The translations under genes were made by a program, and so were the position numbers. This document shows, one piece after another, positions 1-57,351 of a stretch of 64,000 nucleotides of DNA (its first letter is position 1; every line of letters starts with the position of its first letter). The notes below the pieces were generated by a model that saw only the letters and a program-made list of their open reading frames with translations, ran no database searches and had not been told where the DNA came from. The stretch lies in assembly GCF_018143015.1 (NCBI RefSeq), contig NC_054758.1, forward strand, positions 7,982,501 through 8,046,500, in the 5' to 3' direction. Origin of the DNA: Lytechinus variegatus. Taxonomy: Eukaryota; Echinodermata; Echinoidea; Temnopleuroida; Toxopneustidae.

Positions 1-262
1 CTCCGAAACCGGATATGCATGAATGACATATCAAATTAAAGCATTTATTTAGATCAAGCTAGTGATAACCATAATAATCAGTTAAACATCTCCAGGAAAT
101 TGTTATTCCACAAAAACGGTTCAAAACATGCATAAGTTTCAATGTCTTATCTACGTCGTTATTACTGTAGAAACATGCATGTAATATCGCCAGCTACGAC
201 AAAATCATTATAAATCAACCAAAAATAATTTCCTAACACGAAATAAAACCCATTTCGTGACA
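1..262 (-). repeat. 3' LTR, partial at window edge
   Basis: Window position 1 corresponds to position 5138 of the complete LTR, and the match runs without gaps to 262, which corresponds to 5399. It ends in TTTCGTGACA on the plus strand, which is the TGTCACGAAA start of the LTR in element orientation. The sequence next to it inside the element (263 onwards) reads AAGGGAGTTG on the minus strand, a plausible remnant of the polypurine tract. Confidence 0.93.
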
Positions 263-536
263 CAACTCCCTTATTTTTCAAAGCTCGGCCCCCGAGCGTC
301 ATTTAACAACATCAGACACTGTAGCACGAAAAGATAACTCTTAAACAATGCGGCATGAAAAATAATGTCCAAAGTACACGGTGACATGCCTTCTTATAGT
401 GTCCTTGTATTAACAAAACAACATAATAAAGAACACGATAGGGATACTGTTCAAGACGACTTTTTTTCTTGAGTTCCTCCGTCATTCTAACAGTTCTCCT
501 TCCTTAGTGATGTAACGCTCCGTGGTACGAACAAAG

Positions 537-3500
537 CTAGGTGACATCTGGTGGAATCTGGAATCTGTCGGTTGACTTGTTCAGGATCACCTTCTCTTCT
601 GATCCGCCGGTTCTCATTGCCTGGATTCTCTGGCGGGGGTTGTCAGTCTGCGTCTCAGCATTCCTACTGGTGCAATCTATCCAGTCACTGGTAGGCGGAA
701 TCTCCAACACCAGTTTCCTAAAAGCGTATCTCTCATCATAGTCCAGGTCCTCTGGTTCAGGGGTAGAATTCCGACCATGCACTGGAGATACTTCTGGTTG
801 GTCAGGTTGAGGAGACTTTGGACAATCTGGAATGGATGGTTTAGGTACGTCCTTTTGTGGTGTCCTGGACCTCCGTCTTGGTGATCGGGAACAGGAGCGT
901 CGAGCCAAGCTTCCACGTTCTGACTGACGTGGTGAGCGAGAGTCAGTGCGACATAGTGACCTATTAAGAGATCGACTCACTCGCAGTTCCCTATCTTCCC
1001 GGTCCGGCGGAACAGGGTCTATTCGAACAAGACGGCATGTAGAATCTTCCGTCAGTTCTAAAGCATCCCAATGTTCCAGTAGATGTCTAGAAGCCATGGA
1101 ACACGTGCATATTTCATCTTGATCTGGCCTGTTGCCAAGTTTCTTGGCCGTGTAGATAGGACGTATGTCCTTGTCTTCTTCTTGCCAGTCAGCTTTTTCC
1201 TGTGAACTCCGGTCAGTGATGGTTTCATCCAGTTGTACCTGTTCCTGAATGTCATCAATTCTAGGCAGCAGGTAGGCATCCTTAATGGTCTCGGCATTGA
1301 GTTGACGGTAGTCAACACACAATCTTTGGCTGCCATCTTTCTTTTTGACCAGTTCGATGTTGGATGCCCATGGGCTGGTCACTGGCTCAATCAGGCCTTG
1401 AGCTAGTAGATTCTTTACTTGCTCGTCTATTTCTTTCCTCTGCGTCAGGGAATGTCTCCTCTGGGCTTGACATATTGGTTTCGCAGTACCAGTATCTATG
1501 CCATGTTGGACAAAACTGGTCTGTCCAAGATCTGAAGGTCCTGTAGAGAAAACATCTGCATTCTCAACCAGCAGTTCTTTTATCAAATCATGGCATTGGG
1601 CTGGCACTTCGTCAGTACTGCGAACAAAGAGGTCCTTCAAATGTTCTGGTATGTCTTTGTTGGTATTGGTCTCAGTTGGCTCGGCAAGGTTACACATTTC
1701 CATGCTTACTTCTTCCAGCCCTGACAATGAAGCAATGGCAGTGCCTGCCTTTATGATCCTTTGTTCCTTGGTTGGGTTGAAAACCCGAACAGGTAGTACA
1801 TCTTCGTCTGCCTTCACAACAGATCTGGCGACGATGAGTCCTTTCTTGATTAGTTCTGTTGGATTTACAGGTGGTTCGACTAATCCATCACCTAGTGACA
1901 CTTCTCTGCCTGTAACTTTACCTGCTAATACCATCTCGTGTCCTGGAGGAATTGAATAATCTTCTCCAGCTACTATCCTCCTGCAGAATGATTCTCCGTT
2001 ACTATCTAGGCATGGAATTATGCCATAGTTGGTCCTCAATTCCATCTTTTGGCAGTCTAACACAGCATTGATTTTGACTAGGAAATCTAGCCCTAGAATG
2101 CCCTCATTTTTTAGACTAGCCACTGTAGCCATTGTAGTGACGACTATATCTCCAATCTGCACTTCCAACATTGACTTTCCTCTGATTCTCAATTGAGATC
2201 CATCTGCTTGTAGTACAACACTTGTCACTGGCAGTAATTCTGGTCTTCTGATTTCCTCTATCTGGTCAAACACTTTCTCTCCAATGAGAGTGTTGGTAGC
2301 TCCAGTGTCGACCAGTAATTTTAATTCTTGTCCATTTACTTTGCCTTGAAGGTAAAGCCCTTTTCTCTTGGTATCTAGAGTCGCTCCGACTCTGGTTTGT
2401 TCCTCTTTCTTTTGTCCTCTTTTATTTTGCTCATCTTGAGTCACTTCGACTCTTGTTTGTTCCTCTTTTCCTTGTTCCTTTGTTCCTCTTTTCTCTTGTC
2501 CATCTAGAGTCGCTTCGACTCTGATTTGTTCATCTGTTTCTTGTTTTCTTGTTCCTTTCTTGTCTTGTCCATCTAGAGTCGTTCCGACTCTGATTTGTTC
2601 CTCTTTTCCTTTTATTTCGTTCATCATTTCCCTTTCGGGTACTTGTGAAGCTGCTGTTCTTCCTTTTATTTTCTTTGGATATGGGCAGTTGTTCCTCCAA
2701 TGCCCCAATCCATTGCAATTGAAACATCTTTGTTCCTCTTGTTCATCAATCCTTGATTTATTTGGTTCCTCTCTTTTTCTTTGTGGCTCAAAGCCATCTT
2801 TTCTTGATTCCTGATATTTGGTCCTGATTTTTGTTTCCTTTTTCTTGTCTCTTTCATCCAAGGCGTCTATGACAGCCTTTACTATCTTGTCGATAGTTGG
2901 ATTTCTTGGTTGCTTTTCCTCCACTGCTGCAACCTCACACTCCTGCTCTTCCAGAGCTCGGCTGTACCTTATGGCCCGCTTCACTTCATTCCTCTGACCC
3001 TCCATTCTCAGAAAGGCCTCTGTGTTTAAAGCAGCTTCCACAGCATCATCCAATGTGCGAGGTTGAGCACGGAACAATCCCTCTCTTATTTCTGGTGTTA
3101 CTATGGCATCTAGAAAATGCCCTCGGGCAAGCCGATCTTGCCCCTTTTCGTCGAATTCGGGATATGCCAATCCACACAGCTCCCGTATTCTTTGTCCTAA
3201 CTCCTGGAGGCTTTCCTTTGGTTGGCGACGACGTTGCCTCAACTCCGCCAGGTATACCTCAGCTTTGCCTCCTAGGCCAAACCTGTTTCTGAGCCTGTAT
3301 ACCAACTCGTCGTATGTCAACACCATTCCAGGTTGTAGGGTCAACAACTTCACAGCAGGGCCCCTTAGACTTGCAGCAAGAAACTGAACTGCTTCCCTTT
3401 TTGTCCATCCGTTTACTCCAGCACAGGCCTCAAAGTGATGCAAATAATCTTCGACAGGTGTACGTCCATCAAATCTGTCCGGTACCAGATGTGGTCGTCT

Positions 3501-3764
3501 GCCAATCATAGCATCAAAATTTGCCATCCCCGCATCCTGAATATGTGGGGAAAACTGTGGGGGTGTAAATTGAACACCGGTCTTGCAGTAGATGATCGTC
3601 TCATCTGCTCTCTGTCCACTTGATTCTGCACCGGGTGCTTGTCTTATGGACAATCTTAACTGCTCCATCATTTGGTCAATCTCTGTCATGCTCCTCTCTA
3701 AGTGCGCCATCATCTCTCCTGGCGTCGGTCGATACTGCATATTTCCTTGTTGTGCCATTGTCAC
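537..3764 (-). CDS. Gag-protease reading frame of the LTR element, with only the start of RT
   Basis: This 1075-residue reading frame starts 24 bases inside the 5' LTR, just after the primer-site region. Residues of about 85-250 resemble a retrotransposon Gag (a [20 protein letters not shown] stretch followed by a basic helical part). About 345-360 is a CCHC zinc knuckle, [14 protein letters not shown]. About 385-465 is a run of four imperfect E/K-rich repeats containing [11 protein letters not shown]. The aspartic protease has [13 protein letters not shown] near residue 483. Reverse-transcriptase N-terminal motifs follow ([23 protein letters not shown] at about 800-820). The C-terminal part is rich in Arg and Ser ([13 protein letters not shown]). 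Because most of pol is not seen, the protein would supply Gag and protease only. Family identity is strong; activity is not implied. Confidence 0.85.
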
Positions 3765-3765
3765 T

Positions 3766-3787
3766 GGATCCCACTTCTGACACCACT
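3766..3787 (-). promoter_or_regulatory. Candidate primer-binding site
   Basis: Immediately inside the 5' LTR the minus strand reads TGGTGTCAGAAGTGGGATCC. The position and the TGG start are what is expected of a tRNA primer-binding site in a Ty3/Gypsy element. The tRNA species was not determined. Confidence 0.6.
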
Positions 3788-5399
3788 TGTGACGGAACCG
3801 CTGGGCGGCGGCGTGGGTTCGGTCCGCCGGCAGCTCGCTCTTGTCAGGATGCCTGCCGCCGGCGGGTGTGTCGCCACGTCGATTTCCAAACTTTTAGTCG
3901 TGGATCCGTTTGGCAGAGATATACTGCCGCAGTTGACACTTGCACACGCCTCGATCCTGTCAGTACCACCACCAGGCAACCTCCAGACGGCTACACTCTT
4001 TGTTATCAGCTCCAAAAGCTCACCCGACCATATGCATCTGATTCCTGTAGTTAAGCTCCTACGACCATATGCGTCTGATTCCTGTAGTTAAGCTCTCTCG
4101 ACCATAGGTATGGGTTTCTCTGTAGTTAAACTCCTATGACCATACCCATGGACTCTGTTCATTTCCTCCGTCGTCTGCTTACGACCAGCTACTACGTCTG
4201 TTCAGTTCAGCAACCACGTCTGCTCCGTACTGCAACCACGTCTGTTCCGTACTGCAACCACGTCTGAATTTCCGTACTGCAACCACGTCTGTTCAGTACA
4301 CGACCACGTCTAATACCGTACTGCAACAACGTCTGTTCAGCACTGCAACCACGTCTGTTCAGTACCACGACCACGTCTGAGTCCGTACTGCAACCAAGCA
4401 CGTCTGATTCCGTACTGCAACCACGTCTGTTCAGTACCACGACCACGTCTGAGTCCGTACTGCAACCACTGACATCTGTTCAGTACTGCAACCAAGCACG
4501 TCTGATTCCGTACTGCAACCACGTCTGTTCAGTACCGCAACCTCGTCTGTTACCGTACTGCAACCAGGGACCTCTGTTCAGTACCGGAAACGACGTCTGG
4601 TTCTTCGACCATACGTATGGGTCCTTCTGCAGTCAGGTTCCCACGACCACACCCATTGGCTCTGCTCTACTTGTAGTTTCCCCGTTGTCTGCTCCGGACC
4701 TCCGACCGTCTGCTTCCAGACCAGCAACCATCCGCTTCAGACCAACCCGTCTGCTCCAGACTCCGAACCGTCCGCCTCCAGACCAACCAGACTACCAAAA
4801 GAGCAAGCCCTGGTATAGTCTCTTGCTGGCGTGCAAAAGACCCAACATACAAGGAAATCTAACCACAGTCGTCGCCTAGAATTCTAGGTTTCCCCGTGGA
4901 AAGACATGCGAACGATCATATAAATCATTTCGATCGCATCCACCAACTTTATTTATTGGATAGCGAATCCAAATCGATCTGCATACTTTACGTGCAATGC
5001 ACCCCGTGGGCGCCGTATTTCAACAGATCATCGGCAAAGCCTCACGAGTGCACCAACATACTGTACTTATGCATTAATTATACAATATCTGTTATAGTTA
5101 ACCTCTGTTACAATCTTAAAACAGCTATAACTTTGGTCTCCGAAACCGGATATGCATGAATGACATATCAAATTAAAGCATTTATTTAGATCAAGCTAGT
5201 GATAACCATAATAATCAGTTAAACATCTCCAGGAAATTGTTATTCCACAAAAACGGTTCAAAACATGCATAAGTTTCAATGTCTTATCTACGTCGTTATT
5301 ACTGTAGAAACATGCATGTAATATCGCCAGCTACGACAAAATCATTATAAATCAACCAAAAATAATTTCCTAACAAGAAATAAAACCCATTTCGTGACA
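3788..5399 (-). repeat. 5' LTR, 1612 bp
   Basis: The complete LTR begins TGTGACGG and ends CGTGACA on the plus strand. It is unusually long, and about a quarter of it is a minisatellite (4195-4600). At 5399 it gives way abruptly to unrelated sequence. Its last 262 bases are the part seen again at the left window edge. Confidence 0.92.
4195..4600. repeat. Minisatellite inside the LTR
   Basis: An 18-30 bp unit built on GTACTGCAACCACGTCTG and GTTCAGTACCACGACCACG recurs roughly 18 times with small changes. Related degenerate units continue on both sides (CGACCATATGCGTCTGATTC at 4020-4090, and CTCCAGACC around 4700-4790). Open frames here only translate the repeat. Confidence 0.85.
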
Positions 5400-7923: not shown

Positions 7924-9034
7924 ACAAGTGGAATGCCTCTGGCCGTCTCACCTGCATCACGCGGTTCAATATAGCAGCAGTGCTGACTTTGAATACTACT
8001 CTAACTCGCACAAGATGTTCAGTGATACATGGTTACTCTTATGTCCACTTTTTATGAACTAGACCAATAAACTTACAGAGATATAATGGTTATTCACCAA
8101 AAAACCCCAACATGGCCAAAGTTCATTGACCTTACATGACCTTTGACCATGATCATGTGACCTGAAACTCAAACAGGATATTCAGTGATACTTGATTACT
8201 CTTATGTACAAGTTTCATGAATCAGATCCATAAACTTTCAAAGTTATGATGGTAATTCAACAGATACACCCAATTCGGCCAAAGTTCATTGACCTTTGAC
8301 CTTGGTCATGTGACCTGAAACGTGCACAGGATGTTCAGTGATACTTGATTACTCTAATGTCCAAGTTTAATGAACTAGCCCAATAAACTTCCAAAGTTAT
8401 GATGGTAATTCAACAGATACCCCCGATTCGGCCAAAGTTCATTGACCCTAATGACCTTTGACCTTAATCATGAGACCTGAAACTTGCACAAAATTTTCAG
8501 TGATGCTTGATTACTATTATGTCCAAGTTTCATGAATCAGATCCATAAACTTTCAAAGTTATGATGGGAATTCAACAGATATCCCCAATTCGGCCAAAGT
8601 TCATTGACCCTAAATGACCTTTGACCTTGGTCATTTGACGTGAAACTCATGCAGGATGTTCAGTGATACTTGATTAACCTTATGTCCAAGTTTCATGAAC
8701 TAGGTCCATATATTTTCTAAGTTATGATGACATTTCAAAAACTTAACCACAGGTTAAGATTTCGATGTTGATTCCTCCAACATGGTCTAAGTTCATTGAC
8801 CCTAAATGACCTTTGACCTTGGTCATGTGACATGAAACTCTAATAGGATGTTCAGTAATACTTGATTAACCTTATGGCCAAGTTTCATGAACTAGGTCCA
8901 TATACTTTCTAAGTTATGATGTCATTTCAAAAACTTAACCTCAGGTTAAGATTTGATGTTGACGCCGCCGCCGCCGTCGCCGCCGCCGTCGGAAAAGCGG
9001 CGCCTATAGTCTCACTTTGCTTCGCAGGTGAAAC
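7924..9034 (+). mobile_element. GTCTCACC-ended element with GACCTTTGACC tandem array
   Basis: The ends are GTCTCACCTGC (7945) and GCAGGTGAAAC (9024-9034), inverted with one mismatch; the left homology also includes ACAAGTGGAATGCCTCTGGC. Between them are about six to seven units of roughly 170 bp, each with TGACCTTTGACCTTGGTCAT, GATGTTCAGTGATACTTGAT and AAGTTTCATGAACTAG. Near the right end is a (GCC)n stretch and GCGGCGCCTATAGTCTCACT. A shorter copy with three to four units is at 52851-53634. This is a widespread non-autonomous repeat type in marine invertebrates. Confidence 0.8.
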
Positions 9035-9380
9035 AATAAAAATCGAATTAGATGAGAAATGGGTGTAACCCCTTTTTTCAATTGAGCTTTGTTGTATTTT
9101 TCTCTGAACTGGGGGGCTTTCCGAATATATTCCAAAAATGGCCCTAATGAAATTTGTTGTTGCCGTATTCGAACATTTAAAAGCGAGCCGATCCCTCATT
9201 AATCCCTTGCGGATTTTCTCGCATTCGGGTAGGGAGAACAGAATACTCACAAATCCTGCCGAATAAGTCTATTCGGAAGGATTCGCAGCTGATTCGGTTC
9301 CGGTGTAACCAAGGCTTTAATGATAATAGCTGGATTTATATAAAGCGCTTTTTACCAGAGGATACAACGCGCTGCTATTA

Positions 9381-13013: not shown

Positions 13014-13423
13014 TGAAATGAAGAACATTGACTATGAACATAATAATGAAAGAATGGAAAGAATGTACTGTGCTGTAAAATAATTTGTTTTAATGTGTAC
13101 TGAACATTGTATTTTTTTAATTTTCTTTTTTTGGTCTCTATTTGGAAGTAAATGAAGTCATCAGTTAAAGATGGAGTAAAGCCTTGTCAGGGCATTAATT
13201 TATTTATTTTTCTGATTGTATATGATGTATTAAAGAACTCTAATTGACAGATTGATGAGAAAGTAAGATAATTATTTTTTTTCTGATTTGGGTTTTATTC
13301 CGTTTTTTTAATGAGAAAATTGATAAATTTTATTTTCACAGATTATTAAATAATATAGAAGACAACTCGGATGATAGTGATAATAGTTTCCTTGAAACTG
13401 GTTTTACTGAAAAGTGTAATTAT

Positions 13424-16343
13424 ATGTTTTGCGAAGACTTCTATTCTAAACATGCAAAAGATCACATAAACTTTTCACTTATTCATGTCAATGCTAGAAG
13501 TCTTCAGAGAAATTTCGATCACTTTAACGCACTATTATCATCGCTCGATTTTAATTTTAGTGTTATGGCAGTATCTGAGACTTGGTTTAATCTCAATACA
13601 AATATGATTTTTTATAATATCACAAACTATAATCTTGTTCACTTGTGTAGACAGAACAAAGTTGGCGGTGGAGTCGCATTGTATATAAAAAATGACTTTA
13701 ATTATTCACTACGTAGCGATCTTTCATGTATAACAAATAATTACGAAATGATTTTTATTGAAATTACTTATGGTAACAAATCCATCGTTGTAGCATGTAT
13801 ATATCGACCACCGAATAGTGACATGTCTGATTTTATTGTATCAATGAATAATGTACTGGAAATATTGGGAAGTGAAAAGAAAGAAATATACATAATGGGT
13901 GACTTCAATATAAACTTAATCAATTATAGCTCACACAGTAAGACAAATGATTTTTTAGATATGATGCATACTTTCAACATGTATCCTCTGATAACAAAAC
14001 CGACTCGTATATCAGCAAATAGGGCTTCTTTAATTGATAATATTTATACTAACTCACTTGACAAAAAGATCGACAGTGGAATCATATATGATGATATTTC
14101 CGATCACTTCCCAATATTTTCTATTTTGAAAAATGAAACAATAAAACATAACTACCACCAAAGAAAAAAATCATTTCAAAAGAGATTAATTAATGATGCA
14201 AATATACTGTCATTTAAAGAAAAATTGAAAAATATTGATTGGTCTTGTACTGAAAACTGTGCTAATGTTAATGAAATGTACAATATTTTTTTTGAAAAAT
14301 TTTCTTATGCATATGATTCATGTTTTCCACTTCAGACAGTTTGTAATAAACAAAATTTGTCTAAATTTAAGAAACCATGGATTACCAAGGGCATACTTAA
14401 ATCCATAAGCCGTAAGAATAGATTGTATAAAATAAGTCTTAAAATACAAATTCTCATCATGTTATGAAATATAAGAACTACAAAAATAAGCTTATAAGTA
14501 TTATTCGCTATTCCAAATATAAATATTACAAAGATGTCTTTTCATCAATCCAAGGTGATATGAAGAAAACTTGGAGACATATTAATACTATATTAGGTAA
14601 TAAAAAACATCATGCATTACCAAAGCAAATGTATCTTGAAAATGTGAAATTTTCATCCAAGTTCGATATAGCAAACCAATTCAATTCCTATTTTGTTAAT
14701 ATTGGTAAAAAATTATCAAAGTCAATATCAAATCCTTCACACTCTTTTCAGGATTATTTTTCATTCCGAACTCCTCAATCATTCTTTATTAAACCTACAA
14801 CTGTTCATGAATTAATTCAAATGTCTTCCTTCATTAAATCTTCAAAGGCTAATGGATCTGATGGTATATCACCCAAAATTATTAAAGAATGCATACATTA
14901 TATCGCTCTTCCGTTATGTAATATTTTTAATATGTCTCTGAGTACTCGTTCAGTGCCTGAAAAACTAAAAATAGCAAAGGTTGTGCCATTGTTTAAAAAG
15001 GAAAATCCAGACTATATTGAAAATTATAGACCTGTTGCACTCCTTCCAATTTTTGCAAAATTACTTGAAAAAATAATGTTTAACAGACTAACTGATTATC
15101 TTACTAAAAAAGACATTTTAATACAGGAACAGTTTGGTTTTCGTAAGAATTATTCTACCTCTTTAAGAGTGATTTGTTTTTCTGATTATATTTTAAATGG
15201 AATAGAGAAAGGCAACTTTTGTTGTGGAGTTTTTATGGACCTGTCGAAAGCATTTGACACCATCGATCATCACATTCTTAAAAAAAACTAAGTTTATATG
15301 GAATTAGAGGTTTACCTTTACAATGGTTTGAAAGTTACTTATTAAATAGAAAACAGTTTGTGGTGATCGATAGTGTTGAATCTGTTAAATTAGATGTTGA
15401 TTTAGGTATACCTCAAGGTTCCGTGCTCGGGCCCCTCCTTTTCTTTAATATATGTTAATGATATTATGAAATCTTCTAATTTATTGAAATTTTCACTCTT
15501 TGCTGATGATACTGTTGTCTTTGGTTCACTTAAAAATATTTTTACTCTTACAGCTACAATGAACAAAGAATTGAACATGTTGAATGACTGGTTTGTATGT
15601 AACAAACTTATCTTAAATTTCAAGAAAACAAAGTATATATTATTTTCCATTCTAAACGTTAAAAAATTCCATTGAATATCGAGCCAATAAAAATTGACAA
15701 TACTGTTATTTCTAGAAATGAATAATTAAGCTTTTTAGGTGTATTGGTACATGAGTCACTCGACTGGAAGTATCATATTGTTAATATTTGTTCTAAGATT
15801 TCAAGAAGCATTGGTGTTTTATCAAAACTTAGGTACTGTTTACCCGGTAAGATATTAGTAAACATTTATAATGCTATAATCTTGCCACACCTTAACTATA
15901 GTAATGAGATATGGGGTAAAACGTATAAGACTAATATAGAGAAACTTTACATTTTACAGAAAAGAGCACTAAGATTAATAACAAAGAGTAACTTTTGCAG
16001 TCCCAGTCTACCATTATTTCTTAATCTGAAAATTATTCCTATATATGATCTTGTAAAACTAAATATATCTGTCGTTATGTTTAAGCACCACAGAGGAATT
16101 CTACCCAAAACATTTAATAATATATTTAAAACCAATTGTTTCTTCCATAGTTACCACACACGTATGCGAAACAATCTTTGTGTTCCTTTTACGCATTTAA
16201 CAATGCAAACTCATTCTATTCGGTACACAGGTGTTCATGAATGGAACTCACTATGCAACAATCTGAAGTCATGTTCAACACTCTCGTTTCAGACTATTAC
16301 TGAAACGATAATTTTTGAAAAACTATCATCCTTGGCTGAGTAG
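13424..16343 (+). pseudogene. LINE ORF2 (endonuclease and reverse transcriptase), several frame breaks
   Basis: The endonuclease lies at 13424-14467: SLIHVNARSL, AVSETWF, GGGVALYI, ACIYRPPNS, YIMGDFNINL and ISDHFPIF are the expected APE-type blocks in order. The reverse transcriptase follows at 14464-15291 with SSKANGSDGISPKIIK, IAKVVPLFKK, YRPVALLPIFAKLLEKIM, QFGFRKNYST and FMDLSKAFDTIDH. The next frame has GIRGLPLQWFESYL and GIPQGSVLGPLLF. LFADDTVVF, the catalytic motif, is in 15466-15675. A C-terminal part, including ILQKRALRLIT and HEWNSLCNNLKSC, runs to 16343. At least four changes of frame or stops separate these blocks (near 14460, 15290, 15445 and 15680). The upstream open frame may begin before the ATG at 13424. 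Confidence 0.88.
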
Positions 16344-19103: not shown

Positions 19104-20032
19104 TACATAAGCTTCAGAAGCTTCAGAATGCAGCCGCTCGCATATAAGATGGGGATGATATGTGAGCGGTTACTTGACGAAGTGACAATAAAGGCCACAT
19201 AGAAACTTGACCAAACTTTGTTCAGTTTTTTATATATACAATATGTTTTTACGGTTTCTTGTCAATTAGAGGGTGCTGATTACGAATCTGGATGATGCCA
19301 CTCATGTAACCGTGAGCATTTCCCGCAAATTGGCAAAATTCAATATGGCCGCCAAAATATGCAAATTATTCATGAAAATCCTAAAATTTCCCGCACATTG
19401 GCTATGAAATGCATGAAATCGTGTGGCAGGAGTGAAACACTCTCTGAAAAGAAATAATTTTTGATAATTTTTTTTTCCTGATATTCAAAATGGCCGCCAT
19501 AGGCCATTGTATACTGTATTATGTACAATATGAGTAGAGAAAACTAATGAGCACTAAACTGCAAAAAATCACGATGTATGAACAAAGTAATATATGCAAA
19601 TCATCATTACTAAAAAGATATATCATTTATTATGTCATATATGGGAACATTGCTGTATTTTGATATCCAAAATAGCCGTCACTGGCCCAAAGAGAATTGC
19701 GTACAATGGCCGGGGCAAAAAAAAATCACAAGAGTGATCACTAAAATGCATATTATTAAGATTAAACAAGTGGAATACTTACTAAAAACATCATTGTTCA
19801 TATGCCATTTATGTGATAAATGCTGTATTTTGAAATTAAAAATGGCCGCCATAGGCCTAGCTTTATTTATATCATATACAATGCGAATGGAGAAACTAAT
19901 TTTCACACGAGTAAGAAACGTAAAATGCATGTAATTGTGATCTACGAGTAAAATATTGGCTAACAACATGTTTTATAGCAAGACATATCATTTCTTTTGT
20001 CATGCATGAGATACATGCTGTATTATGAAATT

Positions 20033-22794
20033 AGTCCAGGATAGGCCCCATAGAAAATTGACCAAACCTTGTTTTTTTATATATACAATAATTTTTGATG
20101 GTTTCTTGTCAATTCGAGGGTGCTGATTACGAATCTGAATGATGCCACTCGTGTAACCTTGAGCATTTTCCGCAAATTGGCAAAATCCAATATGGCCGCC
20201 AAAATATGCAAATTACCCATGAAACTCATAAAATTGTCCTCACATTGGCTGTGAAATGCATGAAATTGTGTGGCAGGAGTGAAATACAATCTTAAAAATT
20301 ATTTTTTGACAAAATATTTATTTTCCTGATATTCAAAATGGCCGCCATAGGCCATTGTATACACTATCATGTACAATATGAATAGGGAAAACTAGTTTTC
20401 ACAAAAATGAGCACTAAACGGCAAAAATCGCGATGTATGAACGAAGTAATATATGCAAATCATCATTACTAATGAGATATATTATTTATTATGTCAAATA
20501 TTGGAACATTGCTGTATTTTGATATCTAAAATAGCCGCCACTGGCCCAAAGAGTATTGATGTACAATGGCAATGGCCGGGGCCAAAAAATGACATGATTG
20601 AGCATTAAAATGCAGATTATTAAGATAAACGAGTGGAATACTGACTAAAAACATAATTGTAAATATGCCATTTATGTGGTAAATGCTGTATTTTGAAATT
20701 CAAAATGGCCGCCATAGCCCCCATATTAATCATGTACAATGCGAATAGAGAAACTAATTTTCACACGAGTAAGAAACATAAAATGCATGTAATTGTGATA
20801 TATGAATAAAATATTGTCTGACAACATGTTTTATAGCAAGACATATCATTTCTTTTGTCATGCATGAGATAAATACTGTATTATGAAATTCAAAATGGCC
20901 CCTATAGGCCCTAACAGTATTATCTACAATGTGAATTGGGACATATAATTTTGTAAGAATTTGGATTTGCTTGACTATGACATCCATATAATCCTGTTGT
21001 ATGAGTAAAACGTTATTTGAAAACATTTTTTTTTTAATCATCGCATTTCTTCTTCCATATAGGTGATAAATACTGTATTTTGACATTCAAAATAACCTCT
21101 AAAAGCCCTAAATAAATTATGTAACATGCGAACAGGGAAACTAATTTTCACAAGAGTGAGAATCATAAAATGCATATAACTGTGATGTACGGGTAAAGAT
21201 ATTGTCTTAAACATTATTTCTAACTGAATACATCACATATTGGTCGTGGACATGGTGGAGGTAATAAATGCTGTACTTTGAAATCCAAAATGGCTGCCAT
21301 AGGTCCTAAAAGTATACATTGTAACATGGGACATATAATTTTGACAGAATTTGGCTTTGCTTGACTATAAATATTGCATATAATTGTGAATTGTGATGTA
21401 AAGGTGAATTATTGTCTAAAACCATGGTTTCTAACTAGATATATCATGTTGTGTAATTAGGGTGATAAATGCTGCATTTTTAAATAGAAAATGGCCACCA
21501 TAAGCACTTATCGTATATATACAATTTGGGTGGAGACAAATGATGTTCACAAAAAGGGCATATGACAGCCATTTTGAATGTTGAAATACAGTATTTATCA
21601 CCTAAATTACATAAGATATTATATATTTTGTTATAAATCATGTTTTCAGACAATATTCCACTCATATATCACCATTTGACCAAGCAGAGCCAAATCGGTT
21701 TCAAATGATTTGTTCCCATTCATATTGTGTATAATACCGTAAGGGACTGTAGCGGCCATTTTGACTTTAAAATAACCGTATTTATCACCTAACTGGCAGA
21801 ATAAACGATATATCTTAATAGAAATGATGCTTTCAGACAATATTTTACTCATGGATCATTATTACGTGCATTTATGGTGCTCACTCTTGTGAATATTGGT
21901 TTCCCACTTTGCATTGTACATAATACGGTTAATGTCGATGGCGGCCATTTTGAAAGTCGAAATACAGTATTTAACACAAACTTGAAACCTGAATGATATA
22001 TTTCGTTAGAAAATACGTTTTTAGACAGTATCCAATTAATTTATCACATATATATGCATTTTAGCGCTCAATCTTGTGATTTCTTTTCTCCCAATTATCA
22101 TTGTGTATAATACTTTTAGGGCATTTGGCAGCCATTTTGAATATCAGAATACAACATTTACCACATACATAGCATATTAATAATATATTTCGTTAATAAT
22201 TATGCTTATAGTCAGTATTCCAATTGTTTAATCTTCATAATAAACATTTTAGTGATCACTCTTGAGAATTTTTGGCCCCCATTGCAATTGTACGCAGCGG
22301 CGGCTATTTTAGATATCAAAATACTGCAATTTTCCCATATATGACATCAAAATTATATATTTCGTTAGTAATGGTGATTTGCATATATTACTTCGTTCAT
22401 ACATCGCGATTTTTTGCAGTTTAGTGCTCATTTTTGTGAAAATTAGTTTTCCCTATTCATATTGTACATGATAGTGTATACAATGGCCTATGGCGGCCAT
22501 TTTGAATATCAGGAAAATAAATATTTTATCAAAAATTATTTTTTAAGATTGTATTTCAACCCTGCCACACAATTCCATGCATTTCACAGCCAGTGTGAGG
22601 ACAATTTTATGAGTTTCATGGGTTATTTGCATATTTTGGCGGCCATATTGGATTTTGCCAATTTGCAGAAAATGCTCAAGGTTACACGAGTGGCATCATT
22701 CAGATTCTTAATCAGCACCTTCGAATTGACAAGAAACCATCAAAACATAATGTATATATAAAAAAACAAGGTTATGCCTCTTCTATCCTGGACT
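20033..22794. mobile_element. Inner copy of the foldback element (2762 bp)
   Basis: It begins AGTCCAGGATAGGC and ends with the inverse, CTATCCTGGACT. It is flanked directly by AAATT (20028-20032 and 22795-22799). Removing it restores the monomer sequence ATGAAATTCAAAATGG of the outer copy, so this is self-insertion. The forward arm (to about 21550) and reverse arm (from about 21560) are inverted copies of each other over more than 1.2 kb, made of about six to eight monomers each. The arms would pair to form a very long hairpin. Sea urchin TU elements are a known precedent for modular foldback transposons, but their units differ in length from these. Confidence 0.85.
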
Positions 22795-22837
22795 AAATTC
22801 AAAATGGTCCCTACAGGTCCTAACAGTATTATTATGT

Positions 22838-25403
22838 GGTCAATTCCAGCGTAACGGACATGACGTTCAGACAAATTTTTGTAATTCAAATGTTTATACA
22901 GTAGAATTAGCAGTCTTTTGATAATTGTTACTAAGCTTATCAGACACATTTAAGTATCAGTTACATACACATAAAATTTCAAATTGTTTCATTGAACAGT
23001 TGCGGAGAAATTGCACTCTTTGTGAGCGTAACGGACATGACACGAAATGGACGAAGCATTTTTACTTCCTATGGCTTATCAAAATTCCTTTGAATTCTTA
23101 GATTGCATGCACCTGACATTGGTGTTAATTTAACCTTAAGACCATGCTCTATCCATAAAATGGTGTTTAACAACAGTTTTGCAGTGCATTCTGTATTCCT
23201 AGCTCAAAATGTAGCGTAACGGACATGACACACGAAGCGTAACGGACATGACAGTTTTGTCCACTTTTTGTAAGCGAATATAATTATTTTATTACAAGAT
23301 ATGGTACAAGTCTAAGTGTTTACATGTTAAGGCTAGAGGTTAGAGACACATATCATAACTGGTAATCTGTAATATCTCCTATTATTTTGCAATTTGAGAG
23401 GGGGTCTTTTTGTACAATATTCATAAAACAAAAAAATATTTAGAAAAATTTATTTTACACCGGTTAACAACAGTTAATGAGTATTTTCCAGTTACTACCA
23501 TCCGCCACACCTAATTAAAGGAAAAAAAGTTGATAGAAAATATTATTTTTTATTCATGCCCTAATATTTGATAATATACTAGCGTAACGGACATGACACC
23601 CTTACGAAGTGAACTTCATCAGCACTTCTTAGTTTGAAAATAGAAGAAATATCAATAATGAATGTAATTATGTAACAGCAAAGTACCTTTACTGACACTC
23701 TAATGAAAAATATGTAGATATTATTAGCAGGTATCATTAAATTAATAGCTATAGCCTAGGTGATAATTTTATATTGAATACAACGTTAATCGTACCACTA
23801 CAACACACTGAGAAGACCAAATCTCATTTTTTGTGAGAAGAAAACAAAATTTACCAGACCTGTATAAATCCAAGAAGAACAAATTATGGAATGTATTGTA
23901 TGATAAAGAACATGTACTAGTATTAATGTCAGTTTTAAGATTACAAAAAATGGTATTAAAATTTAATAGCAGTACCTGGAAAGCGGTCTTTCATTATCGA
24001 TCATGTATGAGTTGAAAGGTAATCAGAATGCTTGTAAATAGCTTCTGAGATTTTTTTTTCATTCAAAATAACTATCATCCTGAGTATAATCATCCTTTCA
24101 TCAAATCTTGGATGTTCTAAATCTTACAATCTTGCTTGCTGACAAACGTGGCTGTATCTACATGTAATTTCGTTGTATTGTCCGCGCTGCTTGTGTACAA
24201 TTGAAGATACATCATTCAAATCGTTATTATGGCTGACCAAAATACTATGACATAATTTATTGATCGCGCCACATCCTTTCCACGGCCCCTTTGCTTTGTG
24301 ATACTGCAAATAAGTGCCACTGTAGATTCATGGATTCATAGAGCTACATGTACATCATGAAACACAGATATCCGAATACAAACTTGCTTTTAAATGTGAT
24401 CCCATGCCATCACTGAAGAAGTACATGTAGAGGTTGGTGTAAGTCAGATACTTTGAAGTACATTGTAATATCATCAATGATCATTAATTCACAAGTTGGA
24501 GTTTTATCATGCTCCAAACTGTCAGTGCAAGAACCTAAGATAATCAAATGTTTGTTCAAACACGAATGATGCAGATTGTGATCTGAGTATGTTGCCAGAT
24601 CTAGCTGCATCTTATCCTAATATTATGTAACATACCGTTAATTCTCAGAAAAATCTACCAGAACAAGAGCTGAACTTTCATCATTCACCAAATTCTGAAA
24701 ATAGCTTTAATGACATGCAGATTCTAGGAAATATTACATTCAGCTATCCTCAAACAATTGAGACTAACCTCAGTCTGTGACACTGAGCCTAATATTTTGT
24801 TTTTGTAAATGCTGCCATTTGCCATATATAAGGCGTCATGTCCGTTACGCGAATTGTCATGTCCGTTACGCCATTTTTATGAAAATGAGAAATGGTAAGG
24901 GAAAATGATTGCTACACATGGTAGGGGGTTTAATTCTAACATAGAATCTGAATCTGCAGTACCTTTAGACAAATTTCCTGTAAGCTGTGAAAACTTTAAG
25001 TGAAAAACGTAACGGACATGACAATGATAATGGTAAAGAAATCACACAAATCTGAAGACAGATTTCTGTAAAATTGATGAATGGCATAAAATTTAACAAT
25101 AATTTTCTGTTGATTTAGACATTAATCAACTATTCAAAAGTTAAAAGAGACCTCTGGGACCTTGTTTGCTTTTAGTAGAGACAGAAAAGATGAATTGTTC
25201 AAAAATAGCCACATTTTTTACATTTTGCAATATACTATTTTATTTTTTTGATGATGGAAAAAACTACAAAATTTTATCAATATTGCGATTTTTTTATTGG
25301 AAATTGAGACTTTATAGATTACTTTTTAAGAAAATTTGACTGCTTGAGTGAAATCTGATACTTCATCTTTTCTCTAAAGTGAACATTTTCCATGGAATTG
25401 CCC
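22838..25403. mobile_element. 2566-bp non-autonomous element with eight GTAACGGACATGAC motifs
   Basis: The ends GGTCAATTCCA (22838) and TGGAATTGCCC (ending 25403) are inverted with one mismatch. ATGT flanks both (22834-22837 and 25404-25407), and the surrounding foldback monomer is continuous when the element is removed. Inside, GTAACGGACATGAC occurs exactly at 22851, 23028, 23216, 23239, 23584 and 25009, and inverted at 24835 and 24856. Most copies are preceded by GC. No reading frame longer than about 68 codons exists. A 4-bp duplication occurs in Ginger, Sola and some Academ elements; I cannot choose between them. Confidence 0.82.
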
Positions 25404-27194
25404 ATGTACAATGTGAATGGGGACATGTTATTTAATTTTGTAAGACTTTGGGATTTGCTTGACTATGACATCCATATAATCATGTTGTATAAGTAAAATG
25501 TTATTTGAAAACATTTTTTTTTATTATAGCATTTCCTCTGCCATATAGGTGATGAATACTGTATTTTGACTTTCAAAATAACCTCTACAAGCCCTAACTA
25601 AATTAAACATGATTTATATTGGTCGTGGAGGTAATAAATGCTGTACTTTGAAATCCAAAATGGCTGCCATAGGTCCTAAAAGTATTGTGTACATTGTAAC
25701 ATGGGACATATGATTGAGACAGAATTTGGCTTTGCTTGACTCTAGATTGCATATAATTGTGAAATGTGATATAAGGGTGAAATAATGTTTAAAACCATGG
25801 TTTCTAACGAGGTATATCATAATGTTGTGTAAATAAGGTGATAAATGCTACATTTTTTTAAATTGAAAATGGCCACCATAGGCCCTTATCGTATAACATA
25901 CAATTTGAGTGGAGACAAATACTGTTCACAAAAATGGCATATGGCAGCCATTTTGAATGTTGAAATACAGTATTTATCTCCTAAATTACATAAAATATGA
26001 TATAGTTTGTTATAAATCACGTTTCTGACAATATTTCACTCATACATCACCATTTGGCCAATCAAAGTCAAAATCTGTTGAAACAATTTGTTCCCATTCA
26101 CATTGTGCATAATACCGGAAGGGTCTGCAGGGGCCATTTTAACTTACCAATAACAGTATTTATCACCTAGCTGGCAGAATAAATGATATATTTTAATAGA
26201 AATTATGCTTTCAGACAATATTTTACTCATAGATCACTATTACGTGCATGTATGGTGCTCACTCCTGTGAATATTGGTTTCCCACTTTGCATTGTACATA
26301 ATACTGTTGATGTCTATGGAGGCCATTTTGAAAGTCAAAATACAGTATTTAACACAAACTTGAAACCTGAATGATATATTTCGTTAGAAAATCCGTTTTT
26401 AGACAGTATCCAATTAATTTATCACATATATATCCATTTTAGCGCTCAGTCTTGTGACTTCTTTTCTCCCATTTCTCATTGTGCATAATAATTTTAGGGT
26501 CTTTGGCAGCCATTTTGAATATCAAAATACAATATTCATCTCATACATGGCATTTTAATAATATATTTCGTTAACCATTATGTTTTTAGTCAGTGTTCCA
26601 CTCGTTTAATCTTAATAATATGCATTTAAGTGATCACTCTTGTGATTTTTTTTGCCCCCATTACCATTGTACGCAATACTGTTTGGTCCAGTGGCGGCTA
26701 TTTTAGATATAAAAAATACAGCAATGTTCCCATGTATGACATAATAAATGATATATCTCGTTAGTAATGATGATTTGCATATATTACTTTGTTCATACAT
26801 CGCGATTTTTGCAGTTTTGCGCTCATTTTTGTGAAAATTAGTAAATTTCCCTGTTCATATTGTACATAATAGAGTATACAAGGGCCTATGGCGACCATTT
26901 TGAATATCAGGAAAGTAAATATTTTGTCAAAAAGTATTTTTTCAGACACTACTTTAATCCTGGCACACAATTTCATGCATTTCATAGCCAATGTGCGGAA
27001 AATTTTTATGACTTTCATGGATAATTTGCATATTTTGGCGGCCATATTGGATTTTGCCAATTTGCGGAAAATGCTCAAGGTTACACGAGTGGCATCATTC
27101 AGATTCGTAATCAGCACTCTCGAATTGACAAGAAACCGTCTAAACATATTGTATATATATAAAAAACAAGGTTATGCCTCTTCTATCCTGGACT

Positions 27195-28305
27195 ACTAGG
27201 TGGGGGATTCAAAACTTCTACAAAGAAATTTGAAATTCATTAAATATGCTAATTTATGCGCATTTTTCAAAATTCACAAACAAACGCTTCTTCTTCTTTA
27301 TTTGTTGACCGATTTTAATTTTTTTTCGTTTCCATGTGGTAGAGCTTTATGACTTTCACCAGACTTCTGCAAAGAATTTTGAAATTTTGACCCGAACAAT
27401 TTTTATGCTAATTTATGCGAAATTTATTCATGCAAATTTGTTAACTGATTTTGATTTTTTTTCCATCTGGTAGAACTTCATGAAATTCATCATATTTCTA
27501 CACAAAATTTTTAAATTTTCAAATTTTAAGTAGAAGATTATTTATGCGAAATTTATTCATAAATCACACAAAATGCCTCTTCTTCTTTGTTGACGGATTT
27601 TGATTTTTTTTCCATCTGGTAGAACTTCATGAGGTTCACCAATTTTCTACACAGAATTTTGAAGATTTCAATAGAAAAATATGCTAATTTAAGCGAAATT
27701 TATTCATAAATCACAGAAAATGCCTCTTCTTCTTTATTTGTTGACAGATTTTTTTTTTTCTTCAATCTTGTAGAGCTGCATGAGGTTCACCAAATTTGTA
27801 CACAAAATTTGAAATTTTGTCTGGAAAATTATTTATGCTAATTTATGCAAAATTTATTAATAAATCACACAAAAAATGTTTTTCTTCTTCATTTTGATCA
27901 ATTTCAATTCTGTTTGCGTTATATGATAGCTCGAGGTGGTGATACAAAATTTCAACACAGAATTTTGAAATTCATTGAATATGCTAATTTATTCATATAT
28001 TTTCAAAACTCACAAATATTACTTTCTTTAATTGTTGATTGATTTTGATTACTTTGTTCCATCTGAGAGCTACAGGAGGTTCACCAAGGTTCTACACAGA
28101 GTTAAGAAATTTTGACTAGAAAGTTACTTATGCTTTATTTGTTCATAGATCACAAAAATGCTTTATATATGTCATTTCTTCATCAATTTCAATTCTATAT
28201 CCTCAATTTATGTCACCAATATATTTCACTATAGTGTCAACTGGGCTGAAATTAAAATTATGTTAAATTTCGTTGCGATATGCCGGATGAGCTTGACATT
28301 ATTGA
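27195..28305 (+). repeat. ~145-bp AT-rich tandem array
   Basis: About seven units share TATGCTAATTTATGCGAAAT, TTATTCATAAATCAC, GCCTCTTCTTCTTTATTTGT and TCCATCTGGTAGAACTTCAT. The array follows the foldback element directly and ends in a unique segment (CACTATAGTGTCAACTGGGC, GATATGCCGGATGAGCTTGA). That segment is shared with an inverted copy at 38765-39262, so array plus segment behave as one mobile repeat. Confidence 0.8.
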
Positions 28306-40644: not shown

Positions 40645-42092
40645 AAATATTATTTCATTTCATTTATTTTCCATTTCCAACAATCATTTACATTTACAAT
40701 AGTTTTGTTACATACATCTTGATATAATTATAATCAATAAAAAAAGAAACTTATTATGTATAATAATCAAGATAACAGGTCGGAAACGGAGTAGGCTGCT
40801 AAAAAGCGAAGCTTGTAGGATGCAGCCTCCTATAACATACGTATGAAGAATGGAAACAAAACACAAACACAACATGGTAGAAATTTGAACTTAAATCTAT
40901 CTGAATGAATAGTTTAAAAGAAACAACAAGAAAGAAAAAATAGAAAATGAGAGAAAATAGCAAGATCAGTGGTCTCCAGATTCTTGCCCCAACACTCACA
41001 GCGAATTTACGGATCACAGTAAAACGAAAAATATCATATTTCACAGCTCGTAGTGCTGAGTATATATGAAAAATATAATGTATGAGTGATGAAGAGTTAA
41101 AAAAACTAACGAGTATCTTGGAGAAACTTTTTCAACTTAAATTTAAAAGAATTTAGGCTTGGGGAATCTTTGATAGTATTATCAAGAGTGCCCCAAAGTC
41201 GAGGGCCTTCGAAAGTGAAGATGGATTTGGCAAGAATTGTCCGGGGTAGAGGAAAATGAAATTCCTCGGATTGACGTGTAGGGTATTTATGAATAGTTTT
41301 GTTTTTATTAAATGAAGAATCAAAGATTGATGGTAGCATATTATTATTTAATTGATACATAAATTGACCCAAGTTATATTGATATAATGTTTTTACTTTT
41401 AAGATTTTATTGTCAATAAACAGTTGGTCTGTGTGGGATCTCCAGGACATATTAAAAATAACGCGCAATGCCTTTTTCTGTAAAAGTAATATTCGTTCTA
41501 GATATGATGTATGTGTATTTCCTCAGACAATTATCCCGTAGTTTAGAGTAAAATTAATGTTGAATAAAGCATTTTTTAGGGAGGAAGTTGGAAGAAAAAA
41601 CTTGACCTTATTTATAACACCAATATTGCGTGAAATTGTACGGCATATAAAATCAATGTGTGTTTTCCAAGATAAATTGTTGCCTACTATCAGACCTAAC
41701 ATTTTTGTTGTATACAACAAAAGTGACCACTTCAATGTCAGCGTTGTCCAATTTAATATCGTATGGTAGTTTATCTAAAGAATTGCTGAAAAGCATACAT
41801 TTCGTTTTTTGTACATTTATTGACAATTTATTAGATTTTATCCATTGTAGTAGCTTCTCCAGTTCAATGTTCAATATATTGACTAAAATATCGGGATTAG
41901 GATGAGAATAAAGTACATTTGAATCATCTGCAAAAAGAATATAAGATAACATTGTCGAAGAATTGTGAATGTCATTTATATAGATCGAAAATAAAAGTGG
42001 GCCCAGTATGCTGCCTTGAGGAACACCCCAATTAACCTTTAGTAGAGAAGAATTTTGTTCATTTATGTTAACAAACTGTTTACGGTTTATTA
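40645..42092 (-). mobile_element. 5'-truncated LINE, CR1/Jockey group
   Basis: From the left flank of the poly-C piece at 42096 the minus strand encodes [11 protein letters not shown], then [20 protein letters not shown] and [11 protein letters not shown] (41653-42090), [20 protein letters not shown], and in later frames [20 protein letters not shown] and a C-terminal YQYNLGQFMYQLNN (41106-41468). The 3' UTR ends near 40645 in AAATGGAAAATAAATGAAAT. It begins inside the RT domain, as is usual for 5' truncation. There are two or three frame changes. Confidence 0.85.
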
Positions 42093-42095
42093 GGT

Positions 42096-42146
42096 AATTC
42101 CTTCGCCCCCCCCCCCCTATTGGCGAAAGCTGGATCCGCCCCTGTA
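42096..42146. repeat. Poly-C fragment of a GGATCCGCC element
   Basis: A C run, then TTGGCGAAAGCTGGATCCGC, is an end of the poly-G element family. The truncated LINE at 40645-42092 abuts it, so the LINE may have integrated in this element. Confidence 0.5.
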
Positions 42147-42857
42147 AGACCACTCCGCTCAGATTTTGTGACCACTCTAAGCTCCGCCCCTCACTCAGAG
42201 AACCATTTGGGTAGATTGTAGAGTTGATTTTTTTTTCGTTCGTTCAATTTCAATATTTTTCATGGATAATGAGAACTTCAATAAAGAACATTAAATATTA
42301 TTTCAATAATTTTAATGTATTTGCTAAAAAAGTAAGTCAAAAGGTAATCATGATTTTTGTAGTTTTCATGTCAATAAAAAGGCAGTCTGATGAGATATTC
42401 TAAAATACAAATCCCCAAATTGAAATAAATTCTGCACATTGACCTCGCTGGAACTGAGAATAAAACATTGCGCTGCTTTGTGGAAAACAAGGGGCCCACA
42501 AATAGCTTAATGTTTATTTCAAAAACGAAACTTGCTCTCATTGTTTTAGGTCATCAAGATGCAAATATTCGATAAATCGAAGAAAAGTTGTGTTTGATAC
42601 CCATTCAACTTGGCCAAATCTTAGTTCATTTCCTTGTGTTCATATCTCTCTTTGCAGTGACCAAGGTGACCTCAAAGCTGCCAATAGCACCAATATCCTT
42701 CCGTTTTCACTTTTTATTGGACCAGATTTTCGTCCTTGCCCTACCCCGAGGAATGCATGAAGATATATATACATGTATATATATATATATATATACATAT
42801 ATATATACATGTGTGTAAAGTTATACAACAGCTTTTGGCAACTCTTTTTATTTAAAT
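42147..42857. other. Unassigned stretch with (TA)n
   Basis: No gene is recognised. A (TA)n microsatellite at 42764-42812 leads into the left arm of the inverted repeat described next. Confidence 0.4.
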
Positions 42858-43302
42858 ATTGTAAAGAAATGGATGAAGAGAACAATGGTAGGCGTAGCCT
42901 AAATCAAGGCTCCCCAAAGCTATCTACCCTTTGGAAAAATTGGTGATGCCGATTTTTTTCTTCTCCCATACGTGTACTGTATCAAAGCAATATAACTTTG
43001 ATCCAGCTGAGGCATGGCGGCTTGTCATTGTGCAAAACCCACCTTCACCCGACAAAGGAAATTATAATTGGTATAGTGTCGAAAATCTGTCTATCTGACG
43101 GTCAATTGGATCAGGGTCGCCATAGCCACTAACCCGTCTCTGTGGTCTAGTGGTTAAGGCACCGGCGTTCAAAGCTGGGGGCCCGGGTTCGATTCCCGGC
43201 AGAGACATTTCTTCGGCATCACCAATTTTTCAAAAGGGTAGATAGCTTTGGGGAGCCTTGCTTTAATCTACGCCTACCGTTGTTCTCTGCATCCATTTCT
43301 TT

Positions 43303-44423: not shown

Positions 44424-44712
44424 TACACTTTGTAATTCCGAAGGTTCGTAATTCCGAAACACGTAAATTGCCTGTACCTCGATGTTCGTTAATCCGAAAA
44501 CGTAAAAGGGTTCGTTAATCCGAAGTTCCGAACATTTGTGGCGTTATTCCGAAGGTTCGATAATCCGAAAACGAAATAAGGTTCGATGCTCCGAATGTTC
44601 GTTAGTCCGAAAACGAAATAAGGTTCGTTAATGACCGTCGGAAGTACGAACCTCATTTCGTTTTCGGACTTACGAACCTTCGGATATACGAACCTTCGGA
44701 ATTACGAATGTA
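44424..44712. mobile_element. TTCGTAATTCCGAA-type TIR element
   Basis: TACACTTTGTAATTCCGAAG at the left and the inverse ending TTCGGAATTACGAATGTA at the right are inverted ends. Inside, GGTTCGTTAATCCGAA and AAACGAAATAAGGTTCG repeat in the left half and appear inverted in the right half. It is a known kind of small palindromic repeat in marine genomes. No coding sequence is seen. Confidence 0.75.
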
Positions 44713-46952: not shown

Positions 46953-46960
46953 CAAATCAT

Positions 46961-47513
46961 CCCGGGGGGGGGGGGCACTTCCATTCACGAGTGGATACCA
47001 TGCGCGACCATGGGGTCTCGAAAAGCACCCTAAACACGTAATTTCCATATTCTGAAAATGCACCCCTTAACAAGTATTGGCGTGTGAAACCCTACCCTTA
47101 CCAAGTATTGGAAACAAAACGATACTCTTGGCAAATATTCCCTGAAATGAACCCCTAAACAAGTACAGGAATGTTTTATTGTTACAGGTCCTTCGGTCGT
47201 CGGCTTTACCTTATTTGGTTTAGTACGACCCCAACCTTCTACACCTCGCGCAAATCGGACTCTAAACACGTAGTGTTGGGGCAAAAAGGACATCCTTTAT
47301 AAAAACATTTAATTTTGTTTTATCATCCCCGCAAATTGGACCCTAAACACGTAATTTTCCTAGCGAAATAGATACCCTTTTTTCATTATTTTTGTGTTTT
47401 TGACACCCTTATCACGTTACGTACGTAACGTGCCCTATCGTGAAAAAGACATCCTTTTTACGTGTTTTTTTGGTCGCGCATGGTATCCACTCGTCAATGT
47501 AAGTGCCCCCCGG
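46961..47513. mobile_element. CCGGGG-ended TIR element, copy 1 (553 bp)
   Basis: The ends are CCCGGGGGGG...GCACTT with CACGAGTGGATACCATGCGC inside, and the inverse GCGCATGGTATCCACTCGTC with AAGTGCCCCCCGG. CAAATCAT flanks both sides directly (46953-46960 and 47514-47521), an 8-bp target duplication as in hAT or P elements. The interior has CCCTAAACACGTAATTT three or four times and GTTACGTACGTAACGTGCCC. Its partner is at 56655-57213. Confidence 0.88.
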
Positions 47514-56624: not shown

Positions 56625-57351
56625 CTGGGGCCCATTTCATAAAGGACTTACAACCCGGGGGAGGGGGGCCACTTCCATTGACGAGTGGATACCATGCGCG
56701 ACCATGGGGTCTCGAAAAGCACCCTAAACATGTAATTTCCATATTCTGAAAATGCATGCCCCTTAACAAGTATTGGCGTGTGAAACCCTACCCTTAACAA
56801 GTAATGGAAACAAAACGATAGTCTTGGGAAATATTCCCTGAAATGAACCCCTAAACAATTAAGTACAGGAATGATTTATTGTTACGGGTCCTGTGGTATT
56901 CGGCTTTACCTTATTTGGTTTAGTACGACCCCACCTTCTACACCTCGCGCAAATAGGACTCTAAACACGTAGTGTTGGGGTGAAAAGGACATCCTTTATA
57001 AAACATTCTAATTTTGTTTTATCATCCCCGCAAATTCGACCCTAAACACGTAATTTTCCTCGCGAAATAGATACCCTTTTTTCATTATTTTTGTGTTTGA
57101 CACCCTTTTCACGTTACGTACGTAACGTGCCCTGTCGTGAAAAGGACATCCTTTTTACGTGTTTTTGGTCGCGCATGGTATCCACTCGTCAATGTAAGTG
57201 CCCCCCCCCCCGGGACTTACAACTGTTTCCAGTTTGCCATTATGACAACTACCATGGTAACATGACTCAGCAGCCAATCAAAATCAAGGTTTCCATGGTA
57301 GTTGCCGTAATAGCAAAGTTACAAGAGTTGTAACTCTTTTACTGGCCCCAG
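56625..57351. mobile_element. CTGGGGCC miniature element, split by a CCGGGG element
   Basis: CTGGGGCCCATTTCATAAAG (56625 on) and the diverged inverse ending TACTGGCCCCAG at 57351 are its ends. The interior has GACAACTACCATGGTAACAT and ATGGTAGTTGCCGTAATAGC in palindromic order. Without the insertion at 56655-57213 it is about 158 bp. I recognise this as a common marine-invertebrate miniature element. Confidence 0.78.
56655..57213. mobile_element. CCGGGG-ended TIR element, copy 2 (559 bp)
   Basis: It is nearly identical to 46961-47513 along its length (CACGTAGTGTTGGGG, ATCCTTTATAAAA, GTTACGTACGTAACGTGCCC). GACTTACAAC lies directly on both sides (56645-56654 and 57214-57223). This repeat is 10 bp or 11 with the shared G, longer than the 8 bp at the other copy. 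It interrupts the CTGGGGCC miniature element. Confidence 0.88.

Follow-up and report, generated by a model that had tools for sequence, protein, structure and literature searches.

Several of the described transposons that come closest to the element considered here carry short motifs in multiple copies. In the Ac/Ds system of maize (hAT superfamily), copies of the hexamer AAACGG in Ac bind transposase cooperatively. Ds is non-autonomous; its inverted ends are 11 bp long and a short motif recurs several times in its interior. Some Ds-like elements that contain the hexamers were immobile when tested in maize (PMC3260210). Hermes, also a hAT element, has short inverted ends, and next to these a series of repeated motifs at either end. 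The repeats are AAGT-type tetramers and are packed at the tips, where the outermost 55 bp of each end contain five of them; the subterminal repeats of the left end are read by BED domains, while those of the right end lack BED-domain contact and binding to inner repeats is unlikely to support transposition (PMC10368747). Thus, given the right-end and inner repeats of Hermes and the immobile Ds-like elements, repeated motif arrays are not always working sites. In Galileo, of the P-element superfamily, several THAP sites for one DNA-binding domain are present at ~70, 561-577, and 701-718 bp from the end (PMC3688188). Its inverted ends are ~1.2 kb. The target site duplication (TSD) of hAT elements is usually 8 bp (PMC12730594).

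The element described here lies in a 64,000-nucleotide stretch of Lytechinus variegatus DNA, the whole of which was analysed and is called the window. Like Galileo, it has several candidate sites at a distance from its end, but its inverted ends are only 11 bp. P-type TSDs are 7-8 bp. Its likeness to Ds consists of 11-bp inverted ends, several internal copies of a motif, and a non-autonomous character. However, its motif is 15 bp rather than a hexamer, reaches 760 bp inward, and is missing from the rightmost 381 bp, and its TSD is 4 bp instead of the 8 bp usual for hAT elements. It shares with Hermes the short inverted ends and the repeats that follow them, but not the dense packing of tetramers at the tips.

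Boundaries and insertion site

The element is embedded in a degenerate repeat array, which occupies ~19.2-27.2 kb of the window. The array (19192-27199) consists of ATGGCGGCC-type units in both orientations and includes near-identical blocks, among them 21255-22795 and 25625-27195 (88.5%).

For an empty-site test, which gives evidence independent of the element's own sequence, 250 bp of left flank (ending in ATGT) was joined to the 250 bp that follow the second ATGT on the right. The joined flanks were then compared with the rest of the window, with the element and its own flanks masked. The join is crossed by 15 of the 26 non-self alignments; the best of these paralogues is 87% identical and the remaining 14 are 60-73% identical, and all of them come from one array, so that they are not fully independent. 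At the join, ATGT is present once in 6 of the 15 paralogues and a variant 4-mer in the other 9. Around the join, the alignments contain small gaps; one paralogue (at 21268) has the largest of these, with 8 bases absent. Because paralogues in the surrounding array read through the joined flanks, positions 22838-25403 constitute an insertion with a 4-bp target duplication. The region is a discrete mobile insertion with short, imperfect inverted ends, and in the one copy examined a short target duplication brackets a site that is otherwise uninterrupted.

Inverted ends of 11 bp and a 4-bp ATGT duplication had been proposed in the original prediction. Both are present: the empty sites agree with a duplication on the two sides, and the ends, which pair at 10 of 11 bases, form the terminal inverted repeats (TIRs) expected of a TIR DNA transposon. 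Only 13 of 200,000 random 11-mer pairs drawn from the element pair equally well. Coordinates are collected in Table 1.

Table 1. Element, target duplications, empty site, and motif copies (window coordinates)
Feature	Position	Strand	Remark
Non-autonomous DNA transposon, 2566 bp	22838..25403	.	Empty-site test and absence of recognisable coding
Target duplication ATGT, left copy	22834..22837	.	
Target duplication ATGT, right copy	25404..25407	.	
Left inverted end GGTCAATTCCA	22838..22848	+	10/11 match to right end
Right inverted end TGGAATTGCCC (+ strand letters), GGGCAATTCCA on - strand	25393..25403	-	10/11 match to left end
Best paralogous empty site	20886..21128	+	87% identity to joined flanks
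Motif copy 1 (15-bp core)	22850..22864	+	
Motif copy 2 (15-bp core)	23027..23041	+	
Motif copy 3	23215..23229	+	First of direct pair, 23-bp spacing
Motif copy 4	23238..23252	+	Second of 23-bp-spaced pair
Motif copy 5 (15-bp core)	23583..23597	+	
Motif copy 6	24835..24849	-	One of direct pair, 21-bp spacing
Motif copy 7	24856..24870	-	Partner in 21-bp-spaced pair
Motif copy 8	25008..25022	+	Sole outward-pointing copy on right half

Other repeats in the window

Several other repeats are present in the window, and its retrotransposon genes and repeats give it the look of animal DNA. Direct repeats of 262 bp (1-262 and 5138-5399, 99.6% identical) surround a reverse-strand ORF, 537-3893, which matches zinc knuckle and gag-type protease domains and has no reverse-transcriptase match at E 0.001; the 1-5399 region looks like a recent LTR retrotransposon that is missing part of pol. 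Pieces of non-LTR retrotransposons, with endonuclease and reverse-transcriptase matches, lie at 13259-16343 (+) and 41653-42243 (-). One 163/192-bp unit forms two tandem arrays, 8003-8962 and 52930-53574, which are 45 kb apart; 8325-9039 and 52936-53639 are 91% identical. A dispersed repeat pair, 46958-47511 and 56651-57206, has 93.6% identity over ~560 bp. Finally, a cluster of short TTCGGA/TCCGAA-type repeats at 44436-44710, with a self-complementary stretch at 44578-44696 (80%), may mark where a further mobile element that carries repeated motifs ends.

A 15-bp motif present in eight identical copies

All eight exact copies of GTAACGGACATGAC that had been predicted, six on the + strand and two on the - strand, are found inside the element, within 22851-25022. 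These 14-mers start at 22851+, 23028+, 23216+, 23239+, 23584+, 24835-, 24856-, and 25009+, and the 64-kb window contains no further copy with up to two mismatches. Dinucleotide-preserving shuffles of the window yield a mean of 0.23 copies at two or fewer mismatches, and none of 100 shuffles reaches eight. Among the commonest 40 of 141 non-simple 14-mers, one unrelated 14-mer matches the count of eight; it forms a head-to-tail tandem array at 4.2-4.6 kb.

The 14-mer is indeed exact in every copy, but the conserved block is really somewhat longer than was predicted. The invariant core, CGTAACGGACATGAC, is 15 bp and identical in 8/8 copies, and one or two preferred bases are found on each side: the preceding base is G in seven copies, the base before that is A in six, and the following base is A in six. 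Beyond these positions, the flanks have a pairwise identity, across 20 positions, of 0.27 (left) and 0.24 (right) versus 0.28 expected from composition. Apart from the eight perfect cores, the element contains no stretch with one to four mismatches to CGTAACGGACATGAC and a single stretch with five. In the remaining 61 kb of the window, the counts are 1 stretch with three mismatches, 10 with four, and 43 with five, and none with fewer than three. Since the flanks are at chance identity, the sharp edges of the unit resemble those of a protein-binding site, unlike a decayed longer repeat, and the motif looks like a candidate site of this kind. The observed/expected ratio of CpG is 0.41 in the element outside the motif cores versus 0.82 for the window, and two CpGs are kept in every core. 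This retention is compatible either with selection on the motif or with a young array.

The copies fall into two groups. As predicted, five are present in the left 760 bp and three in the right 570 bp: the left cluster extends 760 bp inward, whereas the right one starts 569 bp from the right end. Within the left group, the 14-mers begin 13, 190, 378, 401, and 746 nt from the left tip. A motif-free centre of 1237 bp separates the groups (P 0.032, uniform placement), two direct pairs have spacings of 23 and 21 bp, or about two helical turns (P 0.022 for two such pairs), and 7/8 copies are oriented inward (one-sided P 0.035); these P values are weak, come from tests chosen after looking, and are suggestive only. 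The subterminal placement that had been proposed fits unevenly: at the left end the first copy is 13 nt from the tip, but the terminal 381 bp of the right end contain no motif even when up to five mismatches are allowed.

The motif is not a copy of the tips. The left tip matches the motif complement at 7/11 positions, a score equalled by 805/5000 shuffles, and this derivation was rejected; for neither tip is the resemblance to the motif beyond chance (805/5000 and 3089/5000 shuffles do as well). Single-strand structure at the element ends and at the motif pairs is no better than in shuffles, with folds of the two 100-bp ends giving z values of -0.57 and 0.24.

Coding capacity and superfamily

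The longest stop-free run in the element is 73 codons, a length reached or exceeded in 243/300 first-order Markov simulations. A Pfam scan of 10 of the 25 stop-to-stop ORFs that overlap the element (at least 40 aa) gave no transposase remnant and nothing above the curated cut-off. Four weak matches fell below their curated cut-offs and were rejected, the best being a zinc knuckle (E 0.0025, 18.1 bits against a cut-off of 25). Thus, the element is without recognisable coding capacity and, because nothing recognisable is encoded, it is taken as non-autonomous. It also contains no RNA gene, as judged by Rfam at gathering scores, which in the window gives a single tRNA, far away at 43136-43207. 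This 72-nt tRNA-like gene (+ strand, 60.9 bits; ARAGORN assigns the anticodon TCA, which is doubtful) may be a tRNA-derived repeat.

Candidate superfamilies were compared through published descriptions of TSD, TIR, and termini. A related practice is found in Repbase, which files non-autonomous elements by TSD length together with agreement of the terminal 11 bases, of which one may differ (PMC4455052). The present element is not assigned here to any superfamily. Among the candidates, Sola is described with TSDs of 4 bp and with TIRs that are at least 11 bp long (PMC10741241), and the Sola2 families of Dictyostelium fasciculatum have 12- or 13-bp TIRs and A+T-rich 4-bp TSDs (PMC3627910). The present element has a 4-bp TSD and a TIR of 11 bp with one mismatch, and so appears to fit Sola by the lengths of TSD and TIR; these are the two features compared, and the fit is not proof. 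The element could therefore be a deletion derivative of a Sola transposon, an origin that would be compatible with the mechanism favoured below and that we regard as possible, if on the doubtful side: ATGT is outside the AWWT pattern of those D. fasciculatum Sola2 families (PMC3627910), and no Sola transposase remnant was seen among the 10 of 25 ORFs scanned.

In published descriptions, canonical Kolobok and piggyBac need a TTAA target duplication, while the TSD here is ATGT, and both were rejected. The GG..CC ends of the element likewise led to rejection of Ginger1 and Ginger2 (TGTNR termini, with TIRs of at least 40 bp against the 11 bp here), Chapaev (5'-CAC..GTG-3' termini), and IS481EU (TNT..AYA termini); in the wider CMCT group, CA..TG termini are described for most cases. 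Helitron and Helentron were also rejected, since terminal hairpins were not found and inverted ends with a 4-bp TSD speak against them as well. Academ elements have TSDs of 3-4 bp, and by TSD length Academ may fit. KolobokP, with RR..YY termini, perfect or imperfect TIRs of 11-18 bp, and TSDs of 3-5 bp (PMC9587614), has several of the same features, but its defining terminal direct repeats of ~450 or 660 bp are absent and it too was rejected. In direct orientation, no match between the left and right 800 bp of the element exceeds the motif region in length.

Searches for relatives

Within the window, the element has only weak matches (best E 0.069). Neither there nor in the viral and prokaryotic collections searched was a transposase, an autonomous relative, or a second copy found. 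In the viral collection IMG/VR, two 14-mers within 30 bp of each other gave no match, nor did an end fragment together with the motif within 30 bp; a 16-mer was found in 2 contigs, as a single copy in each. The 15-letter pattern ending in R occurs there in 44 stretches, one copy each, versus at least 120 for a reversed motif of the same length, which was a single control and, unlike the motif, is without CpG. There is no sign of motif enrichment in viral contigs.

Across bacterial and archaeal genomes, the two-motif pattern occurs once, in Rhodopila globiformis (L003:5575-5608), where a local 20-bp tandem repeat in a G+C-rich intergenic stretch contains two exact 14-mers. These copies are without the leading C and so have no 15-bp core; L003 is among the 33 of 46 loci that lack this core. 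The double match is judged to be chance, because the 14-mer is expected many times in 257 billion bases (an estimate rather than a computed value) and local tandem doubling would then suffice; as a local tandem repeat without the full core, this locus was rejected as a relative.

In the published literature, neither the 14-mer GTAACGGACATGAC nor its complement was found. Among the matches listed, 12-base pieces of the motif occur once each in two papers, one on a corn-borer odorant receptor and one on a bacterial vaccine, and were taken as chance or primers. A 13-base piece of the ends occurs in the other four papers of that listing, and no transposon paper, by title, is among the matches listed for the end pieces and motif 12-mers. 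A literature search for internal-repeat transposons gave no match.

Proposed mechanism and alternatives

We think it probable, although by no means secure, that the element is non-autonomous, moves by cut-and-paste, and has its motif array bound in trans by a transposase or an accessory protein. An autonomous relative would supply the transposase, which would cut at the inverted tips and insert the element with a 4-bp stagger in the target. The motif would be the recognition site for the DNA-binding domain of this transposase or for an accessory protein that the relative also supplies. Binding to multiple copies, among them the two direct pairs with their spacing of about two helical turns, would together confer high specificity. 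It would also help to bring both ends into one complex, as has been suggested for the Ac/Ds hexamers (AAACGG) and the THAP sites of Galileo.

The empty sites, the inverted ends, the exact motif with flanks at chance level, the retention of CpG, and the precedents of Ac/Ds, Galileo, and Hermes favour this mechanism, as do, weakly, the empty centre, the two close pairs, and the inward orientation. Against it are the failure to find a transposase, autonomous relative, or second copy in the sequences searched, the motif-free terminal 381 bp on the right, the tips that are unlike the motif, and a 15-bp site, which greatly exceeds the hAT hexamers and tetramers in length. The right-end and inner repeats of Hermes and the immobile Ds-like elements also count against it. 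The original prediction held that exact conservation implies a bound sequence, most simply transposase sites. Its first part agrees with the sharp-edged motif, which is like a protein site; the binding itself is something that we infer, and the copies are likely, though not certainly, transposase sites.

Alternatively, the array could be a passenger whose sites would be bound by a host protein for transcription, silencing, or insulation and would influence expression rather than transposition. The sharp edges of the motif and its presence in both orientations favour such sites, as do the right tip without a nearby copy and a motif unlike the tips. The motif also contains TAACGG, which we take to be reminiscent of the Myb consensus YAACKG. 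However, two end-ward groups around an empty centre (P 0.032), with 7/8 copies inward, are more natural for end recognition, and the remaining 61 kb of the window contains zero copies. We consider a passenger array rather unlikely, though a serious alternative.

Another way to account for identical copies is that they spread recently within the element by short-unit copying, through slippage, gene conversion, or templated repair, without any role in binding. Identity in 8/8 copies is what very recent spread would produce, there are two close pairs, and at 1% divergence the probability that 120 bases stay unchanged is 0.30. If the element had diverged by 5%, though, it would fall to 0.002. Duplication usually takes flanking bases along, yet the copies share the same 15-bp edges over distances of up to 2.1 kb, in both orientations, and within unrelated flanks. 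This origin seems distinctly improbable.

A more far-reaching idea, which we hold to be equally improbable, is that the element represents an animal DNA-transposon lineage of a new type, in which the transposase or a partner would read a dispersed 15-17 bp motif unrelated to the tips, so that recognition and cutting would be separate modules. Tn7-type elements carry internal TnsB sites. A separate-module arrangement would resemble these, here in a eukaryotic setting and with a 4-bp duplication. Lastly, the notion that the boundaries are wrong and that the region, which does sit within a degenerate repeat array, is merely part of it is scarcely credible, since the remainder of the window contains nothing related to the element (best E 0.069), whereas the joined flanks align across the join to 15 paralogues.

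Conclusions

The element is a genuine DNA transposon of an ordinary, transposase-less kind, with an unusually strict motif array. If, as the favoured trans-binding mechanism would have it, the motif is a recognition site, then one element already shows the target of the mobilising protein, a strict 15-bp core. In that case, the motif would also provide a simple pattern with which the host genome could be searched for the autonomous partner and the other family members. If the motif is not such a site, the element would be one more transposase-less transposon in a repeat-rich genome.
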